A DNA stretch of 64,000 nt, from assembly GCF_000317555.1 (NCBI RefSeq), contig NC_019745.1:1798001-1862000 (forward strand), read 5' to 3'. Positions 33,857 through 42,229 of the stretch are shown here, in pieces. A program made the position numbers and the translations under genes. Within the stretch, counting starts at the first letter, position 1; each line of letters opens with the position of its first letter. This DNA comes from Gloeocapsa sp. PCC 7428. Lineage in GTDB: Bacteria > Cyanobacteriota > Cyanobacteriia > Cyanobacteriales > Chroococcidiopsidaceae. The notes below the pieces were generated by a model that did no database searches, was not told where the DNA came from, and saw only the letters and a program-made list of their open reading frames with translations.

Positions 33857-35140
33857 TTAATCAATAACTTCTTTGACGATGCTGGCTAGTTTTTGGGCTG
33901 CGCCAGATTCGCCGCGAATGTGACGAAGTTGTTCGCGCATGGCTGCAAGTTTTTCAGGATGATTTAAGTAATCTAAGGCAAGTTCTGCGACGGCGTGCGG
34001 TTGTAAATTGCCGACAAGTTCGGGAACAACTTCAGACTTTGCCCAAATATTAGGCCATGCGAGTAACCCTAAGCGTCTTAATGCTAGCCAATTAATTGTT
34101 TTTGCCATGCTAGAGCCAACAACTGGTAAATTTGCTAATAGTCCTGGAAGTCCATCCCAAGCCCGCATCGCATCGAGTTGCTGCGTAGGAAGTAATACAA
34201 TCATTGGCACAGCTAAAGCGCCTAATTCTGCCGTGTTCGCGCCGACAGTTGTTAAGCACAGACTGCACTCGGCAAGTAAGTCATACGCAGGGAACCGCGT
34301 TTCTAGCTTGATACGCAATCCGCTATTTGTTTTTAAAAATGGGCGCGCCTCGGTTGTAATAAGTTCAGCACTAACGCCGCCTAAATGCTCAATCATCGAA
34401 TTGAACTGTGGATGAGCAAACTGAGCTAAAGTTTCCAAATCGAGTGTAGGCGCGACAGGAATCACAAATTCTGTTTCAGGTTTTTGAGCGTGGATATGCT
34501 GCGCGATCGCCAACGCTAACGGTACACCTTGCGTTAATTTTGCAGGTTTTGACCCTGGTAATAAACCAATCAATTGTTTGTATTGCTTTGCCTTGAAATA
34601 ATCCTCGGTTTGGGCAAGGCAATGACTTGCCGCTGTTGCCATTAAATCGCCAACAACCGTGAATTTATGGGCATATTTCGCAGGAATGCGCGAAATCAAT
34701 TCAGCTTTCATCACACCAAAGCGATCGATCCAGCGATACCATCGCGCGTCCCATTCGGCATAAATAACGGTGCGGTAGCCGAGACGTTTGCCAATCACAA
34801 CCGGAAAAAATTGATCCCCACCCAGAAAGAGAACGACACCGTGCTTGCGCCAATCCCAATTTGCGGCAGTTTTACCTGTTAAAAGAAATTGCCAGAAATG
34901 CTCTGCGGCTTGAACGCGATCGACTTCTGGATAACTTTGTGCGATCGCTGCTTCTTTACCGCTTGCATTCGGACACGGCGACAAAATGACAGAAATGCGG
35001 ACTTGAGCGCGATCGCCTTTGGTGCTGCGTGCAGCGCAATCGCTTCCTAATTGTTGACGCAATGCTTGGACAACCGGACGCACCCACGTTGTAATTTCTC
35101 CTGGACCATTCGAGAGAATTAAAATATCAATCGCTGACAT
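33857..35140 (-). CDS. Lipid-A-disaccharide synthase-related protein (LpxB-like)
   Basis: A 427-residue protein related to the LpxB glycosyltransferase. Features are the N-terminal ILILSNGPGEITTWVRPVVQ, ISVILSPCPNASGKEAAIA, LFLGGDQFFPVVIGKRLGYR, LLPGSKPAKLTQGVPLALA and LTTVGANTAELGALAVPMIV, the last resembling the nucleotide-sugar site of LpxB. It corresponds to the cyanobacterial and algal 'LpxB-related' family rather than LpxB itself; its substrate is unknown. Residues 33-44 (SDCAARSTKGDR) are an in-frame insertion encoded by a 35-bp repeat, see that entry. Without it the chain would run LG directly into AQVRISVIL. Confidence 0.8.
   Translation of the reverse strand: MSAIDILILSNGPGEITTWVRPVVQALRQQLGSDCAARSTKGDRAQVRISVILSPCPNASGKEAAIAQSYPEVDRVQAAEHFWQFLLTGKTAANWDWRKHGVVLFLGGDQFFPVVIGKRLGYRTVIYAEWDARWYRWIDRFGVMKAELISRIPAKYAHKFTVVGDLMATAASHCLAQTEDYFKAKQYKQLIGLLPGSKPAKLTQGVPLALAIAQHIHAQKPETEFVIPVAPTLDLETLAQFAHPQFNSMIEHLGGVSAELITTEARPFLKTNSGLRIKLETRFPAYDLLAECSLCLTTVGANTAELGALAVPMIVLLPTQQLDAMRAWDGLPGLLANLPVVGSSMAKTINWLALRRLGLLAWPNIWAKSEVVPELVGNLQPHAVAELALDYLNHPEKLAAMREQLRHIRGESGAAQKLASIVKEVID
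35009..35043 (-). repeat. 35-bp HIP1-ended repeat inside the LpxB-like gene
   Basis: Read on the coding strand it begins GCGATTGCGCTGCACGCAGC and ends GGCGATCGC. A copy of the same length with four differences lies in the methyltransferase gene at 41541-41575, in the same reading frame and orientation relative to its gene. Confidence 0.85.
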
Positions 35141-40583: not shown

Positions 40584-41207
40584 ATGAAGGTGCGTATCTT
40601 TGAAGTTATCGGGGGCACTTCAGTACAAATGATTCTCACGCACTACTATCACAGAGATGATCAGCCGTTTCAAATCTTGTCAGATCTTGCTGAAGAAGAA
40701 GCCCTAAGCGTTATATCTAATCTGCGCGATCGAACTGGTGCGGTATATGACAGGTTCAGCAACCCTAAGAAGTATTTGCAACGGAGGCAAGAAGCAGAAA
40801 GTTGGGTCAGACAAGAGTTCATCAAAAAGGGTGGTCAGCCCATTTCTCTCTATCCTCAGTACTTTGTAGTTGAGCGAGCCGTATGGATCGAAGAAGGGTT
40901 CAATGGGCAAAGCAACTCAGTACAGATTCCACTGTCGGCTTTTAGTGCTGAACAAGTTAGCTTTACTTACCCAGATAGCATGATCAGTTACTGGTTAAGA
41001 AACCAAACAGATCAAGAGTTCTACCATTCCGAGTATCATGGTCAAGTATTTGTATTGAGTGAAATTTGCCAAATCGTTGATAAGTTTGGCATCCCTAACG
41101 AAGAGTGGCGAACAAACAGAGCGCGAGAATGGGATTTTTTCATTGAGGCTCAAGTGTGGAGTAATATTCCAAGCTTGTATGCAACGCAGCCAAATAATTC
41201 AAAATAA
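40584..41207 (+). CDS. Uncharacterised protein
   Basis: ATG 40584 gives a 207-residue protein beginning MKVRIFEVIGGTSVQMILTH; the longer frame from 40491 has an unlikely N-terminus. The protein is soluble, rich in aromatic and charged residues, with no signal peptide or membrane segment. Visible stretches are VEYLR-type charged helices (FSNPKKYLQRRQEAESWVRQ) and SEYHGQVFVLSEICQIVDKF. No family is recognised. Neighbours are a MITE-like element and a gene relic, so it may be part of an accessory island. Confidence 0.6.
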   Translation: MKVRIFEVIGGTSVQMILTHYYHRDDQPFQILSDLAEEEALSVISNLRDRTGAVYDRFSNPKKYLQRRQEAESWVRQEFIKKGGQPISLYPQYFVVERAVWIEEGFNGQSNSVQIPLSAFSAEQVSFTYPDSMISYWLRNQTDQEFYHSEYHGQVFVLSEICQIVDKFGIPNEEWRTNRAREWDFFIEAQVWSNIPSLYATQPNNSK

Positions 41208-41261
41208 TGACTAAATCAGCTTTTGTCTCGCGAATAGTTCTCAAGTTTAAGAAATCTAGGA

Positions 41262-41441
41262 GCCAACGTGCATACAATATTCAGCATGAGTAATATACAA
41301 CTCTGGTTGATCTGCAACACCTTTTGAGAGATATCCCACAGGTTGCATGCCTAGTTCGAGTAAGATATCTAATAAACCTGCGGCAGTCAAATACAAAATG
41401 CGTTTTGCAGGTTGCGTAAGTTCAATAGATAAATTTTTACC
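41262..41441 (-). pseudogene. Fragment of an iron-siderophore ABC substrate-binding protein (FecB-like)
   Basis: The minus strand encodes about 60 residues, including IELTQPAKRILYLTAAGLLD and LLELGMQPVGYLSKGVADQP, typical of the N-terminal lobe of FecB/BtuF-type binding proteins. It has neither a start nor an end and abuts the methyltransferase start. It is a decayed remnant. Confidence 0.65.
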
Positions 41442-41443
41442 AA

Positions 41444-42229
41444 ATGCAGAATCAATGGGATGCTAAACTCTACGATCGCAACCACACTTTTGTTTCAGAA
41501 TTAGCAACAGATTTAATAGAAATACTCGCACCTCAAGCAGGCGATTGCGCTACGCGCAGCACCGGAGGCGATCGCATTCTTGATTTAGGTTGTGGTACAG
41601 GCGACTTAACAAACAAAATTGCGAGTCAAGGTGTCGAAGTTGTCGGTATAGATTCCGCTACGACGATGATTGAACAAGCGCGTAACAAATACCCACATTT
41701 GCATTTTGAAGTATTAGACGCGAGAAACTTACAATACAAAGAAGAATTTGATGCTGTGTTTTCTAACGCTGCACTACATTGGATTACAGAACCAGAAAAA
41801 GTGATATTTGGAGTTCATCAAGCTTTAAAATCAGGCGGGCGTTTTGTCGCAGAATTTGGTGGTAAAGGTAATGTAAAGGCAATTATTACGGCGTTATATC
41901 AAGCTTTAGAAAATGCAGGTTATCCAGTAAATACAATATCAAACCCTTGGTATTTTCCAAGCATTGCAGAGTATGGAAATTTGCTAGAAAAACACGGTTT
42001 ACAACTTACATTTGCGACTCTTTTCGATCGCCCTACACGTTTGGAAGAGAGGGAGAAAGGAGTGCAAAACTGGTTGAGAATGTTTGCAAATAGTTTTTTA
42101 GATACATTTTCATCTGAGCAGCAAGCAAGGATTATATCTGATGTAGAAAACCAATTGCGTCCTGTCTTGTATCAAAATGGCGTATGGTTTGCTGATTATC
42201 GACGTATACGGATTGTTGCAGTTAAATAA
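41444..42229 (+). CDS. Class I SAM-dependent methyltransferase
   Basis: A 261-residue class I methyltransferase resembling trans-aconitate methyltransferase. Motif I is RILDLGCGTGDLTNKIA, the acidic end of strand 2 is VVGIDSATTMIEQAR, and the later FDAVFSNAALHWITEPEKVI is typical. Residues 33-44 (GDCATRSTGGDR) are encoded by a 35-bp HIP1-ended repeat that lies directly before motif I; relatives run from the LAP-type segment straight to RILDLG. The start overlaps a FecB-like relic on the other strand. The methyl acceptor is unknown. Confidence 0.88.
   Translation: MQNQWDAKLYDRNHTFVSELATDLIEILAPQAGDCATRSTGGDRILDLGCGTGDLTNKIASQGVEVVGIDSATTMIEQARNKYPHLHFEVLDARNLQYKEEFDAVFSNAALHWITEPEKVIFGVHQALKSGGRFVAEFGGKGNVKAIITALYQALENAGYPVNTISNPWYFPSIAEYGNLLEKHGLQLTFATLFDRPTRLEEREKGVQNWLRMFANSFLDTFSSEQQARIISDVENQLRPVLYQNGVWFADYRRIRIVAVK
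41541..41575 (+). repeat. 35-bp HIP1-ended repeat inside the methyltransferase gene
   Basis: It begins GCGATTGCGCTACGCGCAGC and ends with the HIP1 octamer GCGATCGC, matching the element at 35009-35043 at all but four positions. In both genes it is read in the same frame, giving DCA(A/T)RST(K/G)GDR. Confidence 0.88.

Follow-up and report, generated by a model that had tools for sequence, protein, structure and literature searches.

The window analysed here is a stretch of 64,000 nucleotides of contig NC_019745.1 of Gloeocapsa sp. PCC 7428 (positions 1,798,001 to 1,862,000). HIP1 occurs 74 times in it, and two unrelated genes, encoding an LpxB-like protein and a SAM-dependent methyltransferase, respectively, each contain one copy of a HIP1-ended repeat of 35 bp (Table 1). 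Such a shared repeat had been proposed in an initial annotation made from the sequence alone, and comparison of the two 35-mers confirmed it, with 4 of the 35 positions differing between them. When the window was scanned at up to 13 mismatches, no third stretch was found within 12 mismatches of either 35-mer. Both copies are read in the same frame and orientation, giving peptides DCAARSTKGDR and DCATRSTGGDR, as had been claimed; these peptides were counted at residues 34–44 of both proteins, instead of the residues 33–44 given originally. In the methyltransferase, the PF13649 match starts at residue 45 and the insert ends just ahead of the methyltransferase domain. The AlphaFold2 model of the LpxB-like protein (mean pLDDT 84.2) has 426 residues because the first Met is left out, so that protein numbers are one higher than model numbers. 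In model numbering, helix 12–31 (helix 1) precedes the insert and strand 46–52 follows it, and residues 34–38 are the sole segment of at least three residues with pLDDT below 50. The model places the insert in a loop of low confidence that joins helix 1 to the following strand.

Table 1. Coordinates in the window of the two repeat copies, their inserted cores and their host genes.
Feature	Position	Strand	Description
Copy 1, 35-mer of the initial annotation	35009..35043	-	27-bp element plus both HIP1 target halves, within the LpxB-like gene
Copy 1, inserted 27-bp core	35014..35040	-	Presumed placement between HIP1 bases 3 and 4
Host gene 1, LpxB-like (lipid-A-disaccharide synthase family), 427 aa	33857..35140	-	ORF; PF02684, E 6.6e-6
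Copy 2, 35-mer of the initial annotation	41541..41575	+	27-bp element plus both HIP1 target halves
Copy 2, inserted 27-bp core	41544..41570	+	Presumed placement between HIP1 bases 3 and 4; 27-bp difference
Host gene 2, SAM-dependent methyltransferase, 261 aa	41444..42229	+	ORF; PF13649, E 5.8e-21

The genome search for further copies that had been suggested with the initial annotation proved fruitful. A degenerate pattern allowing up to 3 mismatches matched 28 copies in the 5.88-Mb genome, against 0 matches for the reversed pattern, used as a control in the same genome at up to 3 mismatches; the repeat is thus far more frequent than chance would allow. A covariance model was trained on 48 copies, among them 26 of the 28 pattern copies of this genome; it gave 32 matches in the genome at E below 0.001 and 52 at E up to 1. 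The two window copies, each itself in the training set, matched the model with 49.5 bits and E 1.6e-7 (copy 1) and with 52.8 bits and E 2.9e-8 (copy 2). Dispersed copies were found in both coding and non-coding DNA, and their occupancy differs between close relatives. The pattern was matched at up to 3 mismatches in 22 of 60 genomes, Gloeocapsa sp. PCC 7428 included, and the covariance model at E up to 0.001 detected copies in 13 of 22 named genomes and none in 9. Copy number across genomes is patchy, with 57 model matches in Hydrococcus sp. Prado102 (G081) and 37 in Gloeocapsopsis crepidinum.

The flanks of all 28 copies were compared with five relatives chosen from the genomes searched: the two further ones of its genus (G001 and G002) and, from its family, the three with most copies (G004, G010 and G014). 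BLAST matched both flanks in 79 comparisons. The flank-to-flank distance was exactly 8 bp in 41 of them, occupied by GCGATCGC in 27, by GCAATCGC in 6 and by other octamers in 8; it was exactly 35 bp in 13 and of other lengths in 15, and the anchors failed in 10. At least one empty 8-bp allele was present at 19 of the 28 sites, and an exact GCGATCGC empty allele at 17. Four sites had no usable flank comparison (L004, L017, L025, L028), four had 35-bp comparisons only (L023, L024, L026, L027) and L012 had irregular lengths only. Since the 8-bp gaps left between the flanks in relatives are mostly GCGATCGC, it is 27 bp that went into a pre-existing HIP1 octamer, and the 35-mer consists of 27 inserted and 8 target bases. 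The 35-bp element of the initial annotation is thus a dispersed repeat, as proposed, but the inserted unit is shorter than was thought. The idea of a small mobile repeat that enters coding DNA with the frame kept is borne out directly by the empty sites in relatives. As 27 bp make nine codons, an exact insertion keeps the reading frame and normally adds nine residues; the notion that the element survives when it keeps the frame is therefore not supported in that form, since any exact insertion stays in frame, save where one of the variable bases creates a stop.

The inserted unit has 27 nt, approximately ATTGCGCNNAGCGCAGCGCCNNAGGCG, and would lie between bases 3 and 4 of HIP1 (GCG^ATCGC). The 27-bp difference at 8-bp sites agrees with a precise insertion at that point, which covariation at pair 20–30 favours over the few other placements that would be equivalent. 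A five-base target duplication was also considered, and is not separable from microhomology. Left-arm variants (GTGAT, GCAAT) were, by eye, mostly unmatched on the right side, the exception being the G001 copy at L010.

At the lpxB site (L001), G001, G004, G010 and G014 show an exact 27-bp gap; the gap in G002 is imperfect, with 5 bp left and three further bases missing. None of the five relatives has exact GCGATCGC there, the sequences present instead being ACAATCGC (twice), ATGACCGC, GCGATTCC and ATTCG, so that the target octamer of copy 1 is only presumed. The boundary of its core is ambiguous by a few bases because of the repeated GCGAT; the net length difference is 27 bp, and the placement in Table 1 follows the covariation at pair 20–30 and a statement on the repeat SDR5 in excerpts of PMC4390886. 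The methyltransferase site is an empty GCGATCGC in G001 and holds 8-bp variants in G010 (ACTATCGC) and G014 (GCGAGCGC). It is occupied in G. crepidinum LEGE 06123 (G004) by a copy identical at 35 of 35 positions, and in G002 a partial match, outside the flank-comparison tally, spans the site without the element. Empty sites in relatives, which the initial annotation had anticipated for both genes, were accordingly found for the lpxB copy in all five and for the methyltransferase copy in G001, G010 and G014, but not in G. crepidinum.

The LpxB family aligns without the insertion, as had been noted: the spacing between anchors is 16 residues in 49 of 80 relatives, compared with 25 (+9) in the window protein, the anchor pattern having failed in 9 relatives and the other 22 having 13–17, 24, 25 or 41. 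Distant orthologues carrying the same residues had been named as a test of ancestry. The lpxB gene of Fischerella muscicola (L033) does carry its own copy of the element at the matching protein position, inside an older, different insertion, and this copy came out as a repeat event, not as ancestry. The related lpxB genes L030, L037, L038 and L039 are without the element, and in L030 the HIP1 at the corresponding place is empty. This lpxB position appears, from the sequences compared, to be an insertion hot spot. The older insertion is a different short sequence found at that position in lpxB of these Fischerella relatives (L030, L033, L037, L038, L039); it contains GGAGACGCTA in four of the five, with HIP1 at its end in L030 and L033.

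The methyltransferase copy is probably shared with G. crepidinum through recombination. Identity to that genome is 97% in the DNA 800 to 150 bp upstream of the element (window 40741–41575; L138, G004:C106), 94% and 90% over the final 150 bp before it, and 81–85% over 400 bp downstream, and this drop across the element suggests a break near the repeat. A further case concerns L026 (G000:C5), L139 and L276, where the surrounding DNA shows no difference from G002 throughout the stretch compared and is 84–100% identical per segment to that of G010; the region around the contig C5 copy has probably moved recently between genera.

Pfam assigned a family to 19 of 20 host proteins. Pfam-backed coding hosts comprise thymidylate kinase, a SufB/SufD-type protein, a PucR-type regulator, a CheA-like kinase, two GNAT proteins, a solute-binding protein, an amidase, a PIN protein, cytochrome b561, an FGGY kinase and an alpha/beta hydrolase. 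Two of the 20, L012 and L016, probably start downstream of the element, and L016 was nonetheless called coding; coding calls are codon scores, not annotation, and some of the 59 of 136 first-set copies not called coding lie in Pfam-supported ORFs (L013, L018, L027). In five genomes, 67 of 118 distinct loci were called coding, whereas the HIP1 sites of that DNA gave 367 of 505 (odds ratio 0.49, p 0.001). Since the coding share is below that of HIP1 sites, insertion in genes is tolerated yet apparently selected against. Coding copies occur in all three frames and both orientations, and frame use tracks that of HIP1 (27:29:11 versus 32.9:24.6:9.5 expected, p 0.36). The conserved frame that the initial annotation had read from the window pair is not supported in that form, given that all frames and orientations are used and that random coding pairs share both in 27–31%; the frame and sense orientation of the window pair are the commonest class among coding copies. 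Nor is the suggestion that the element has evolved towards translatability: of 193 distinct copies, 92 are open in all six frames, compared with 40 of as many composition shuffles and 6 of as many random sequences of 43% GC, a share above composition and far from absolute. The stricter proposition that all six frames are always open was rejected on the same count.

As HIP1 is palindromic, the orientation of insertion is free. A first set of 136 copies, with 67 coding among its 118 distinct loci, had 57 coding loci in sense and 10 in antisense orientation; a second set of 77 copies, which added 58 distinct loci, 33 of them coding, had 19 and 14 (p 0.49). The difference between the sets has p 0.005 (G016 by itself gave 1:4), and pooling gives 76:24 for 100 coding loci. 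A universal sense bias was discarded, the 57:10 ratio not having been replicated. When loci were split by frame, a division chosen after a first look at the data, frame NGC-GAT-CGC showed 28:1 in the first set and 11:2 in the second (p 0.02), together 39:3, and the other frames 29:9 and 8:12, together 37:21. The sense peptide of frame NGC-GAT-CGC is D-C-A-x-R-S-A-x-G-D-R, and the sense excess in this one frame, with gene calls made by codon score and the split made post hoc, points to selection on the encoded peptide. Target context was rejected as a cause of the sense bias: a context matrix derived from the 59 copies not called coding and applied to the 367 coding HIP1 sites predicts a sense share of 0.43, which cannot account for 57:10.

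A possible fold of the 35-mer is GCGAT-(TGCGC nnn GCGCA)-G-(CGCC nnn GGCG)-ATCGC. Covariation was assessed in 128 rows (126 distinct) among the matches listed, G010 rows and repeats being left out, by comparison of the 126 distinct copies with 2000 shuffles. Stem 1 showed 15 both-sided pair changes (shuffle mean 3.1, maximum 11) and stem 2 showed 30 (mean 11.7, maximum 20); the outer stem, most of which is target sequence, showed 0. Sliding stem 2 by 1 to 3 columns yielded up to 23 both-sided changes with less than half of the cells paired, versus 87% unslid. In alignment A1, of whose 48 rows 47 are distinct and 22 were hand-picked for diversity, 17 cells had both-sided changes versus 4.7 expected; none of 500 shuffles was as high, and slid versions of the structure reached up to 14, with far fewer cells paired. 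The number of pairs with both-sided changes was less striking in A1, 30 of 500 shuffles being as high. These results indicate that the paired stems are maintained through covariation; palindrome-correcting mutation, not selection, could give the compensatory changes. Canonical copies, and only these, reach the full three-way fold, at -12.2 kcal/mol, and for the two window copies folding has no clear advantage over shuffles (z -0.31 and -0.41). The three-base loops vary freely, and five were found in both complementary forms. Of the orthologous copies L339 and L356, which lie in different genomes, one has the loop TTC and the other GAA, as a flip of the hairpin loop would produce.

The occupied and empty sites could also be read as loss, ancestral elements having been precisely deleted by slippage between the flanking near-repeats GCGATTGC and GCGATCGC. 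These flank each core at 27-bp spacing and would ease exact deletion, and some losses would fit the patchy occupancy of L011 and L016 among relatives and the state of L008, where an identical 35-mer in this genome (G000) and in G010 lies in flanks only 78–90% identical and four other relatives are empty, a state that fits transfer, repeated insertion or precise loss alike. Between G010, which has the L008 element, and G001, which is empty, identity is 98% over the left 150 bp, 94% over the right 50 bp and 75% beyond, a polymorphism between close relatives that speaks for mobility. As a general account loss is quite improbable, since ancestry at most of the 28 sites would demand many parallel exact losses. 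L014 and L019 are empty in all five relatives, L001 is cleanly empty in four, with three further bases missing in the fifth, and the lpxB segment is short in the 49 of 80 relatives mentioned above; the methyltransferase copy in common with G. crepidinum is accounted for by transfer, given the upstream and downstream identities. Hardly credible is the view that the segments are features of the host proteins, conserved loops or linkers whose DNA became alike by convergence on HIP1-rich codons. HIP1 is indeed common in the window and both peptides are in one frame, but the 27-bp core beyond HIP1 is common to 28 loci, in unrelated genes and intergenic DNA and in several frames, and it is exactly absent from relatives at 19 of the 28 sites.

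SDR5 and other small dispersed repeats of cyanobacteria were reportedly treated by Elhai et al. in 2008. In excerpts of PMC4390886, from a search of open-licence PubMed Central papers, SDR5 is a very small mobile cyanobacterial repeat that inserts precisely between bases 3 and 4 of HIP1, as the 27-bp unit appears to do, the two being likened by target site and description. A very small repeat inserted in HIP1 is thus already known and, because the HIP1 insertion of SDR5 is in print, the unit is most likely SDR5 or a sister repeat. Rickettsia palindromic elements, as presented in excerpts of PMC10969869, are palindromic repeats that likewise enter unrelated genes in frame; unlike these, which are about 150 bp long with a conserved translated peptide, the present unit has 27 bp, is HIP1-targeted, uses all frames and both orientations, and belongs to another phylum. 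REPINs are reported from RAYT-containing genomes, including Nostoc punctiforme, in excerpts of PMC3116915 that also mention SDRs. The unit resembles REP and REPIN repeats in being short, dispersed, hairpin-forming and non-autonomous, and this genome has 3 matches to the Y1 family (PF01797), one of them weak and with a stop. Mobilisation as a REPIN-like element by a RAYT or Y1 transposase is nonetheless unlikely. REP repeats are extragenic according to the same excerpts, whereas the HIP1-targeted unit often lies in genes (67 of 118 distinct loci called coding). Y1 matches were present in 35 of 40 genomes with no visible relation to element copy number. In G016 (88% complete), which has no match to Y1, the pattern was matched 9 times at 8 places, and G008 has 11 Y1 matches and no element copies. 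A Y1 (IS200/REP-type) transposase is therefore disfavoured as the mover, and the comparison of Y1 counts with copy number over 40 genomes yielded no mobilising enzyme.

Taken together, each of the two window segments is very probably a copy of a single, very small mobile repeat that is non-autonomous and most likely SDR5 itself or closely related to it. The repeat may move as a folded strand with two hairpins, its outer arms GCGAT/ATCGC coming partly from the target, and could be copied into HIP1 by some enzyme or by template switching via HIP1 microhomology at both ends. Adding nine residues without a frameshift, copies would persist where the protein tolerates a short loop, and selection would remove the others. 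The thymidylate kinase gene is usually essential in bacteria, and persistence would extend even to such genes. No function in the host cell is needed by this explanation. A more tentative possibility is that this HIP1-seeking repeat of 27 nt is a natural source of in-frame linkers of nine residues in cyanobacteria at large, with the copies in genes sorted through selection on their peptide; it might spread by template switching, with no need of a dedicated transposase. Exact empty and filled sites in close relatives offer a countable system for the movement of small repeats and for HIP1 targeting, and the same sites show which nine-residue insertions are tolerated by proteins, including thymidylate kinase and an Fe-S assembly protein. 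The frame-dependent sense bias, if true, separates selection on the peptide from the mechanism of insertion.

Several variant forms of the repeat were also observed. L437 and L439 (G015:C35:56963-57024) form a tandem pair with one HIP1 octamer in common and a 27-bp period. Hydrococcus sp. Prado102 (L362–L374, L404–L429, L445–L464) has many re-paired stems, TGCCC/GGGCA and CGGC/GCCG. In a subfamily from G014 and G004 (L327, L328, L349, L351, L355), stem 1 is TGCGCT(T/C)TTCTCA, which makes the hairpin impossible, and the orthologous site L355/L379 has this form in one genome and the hairpin form in the other.
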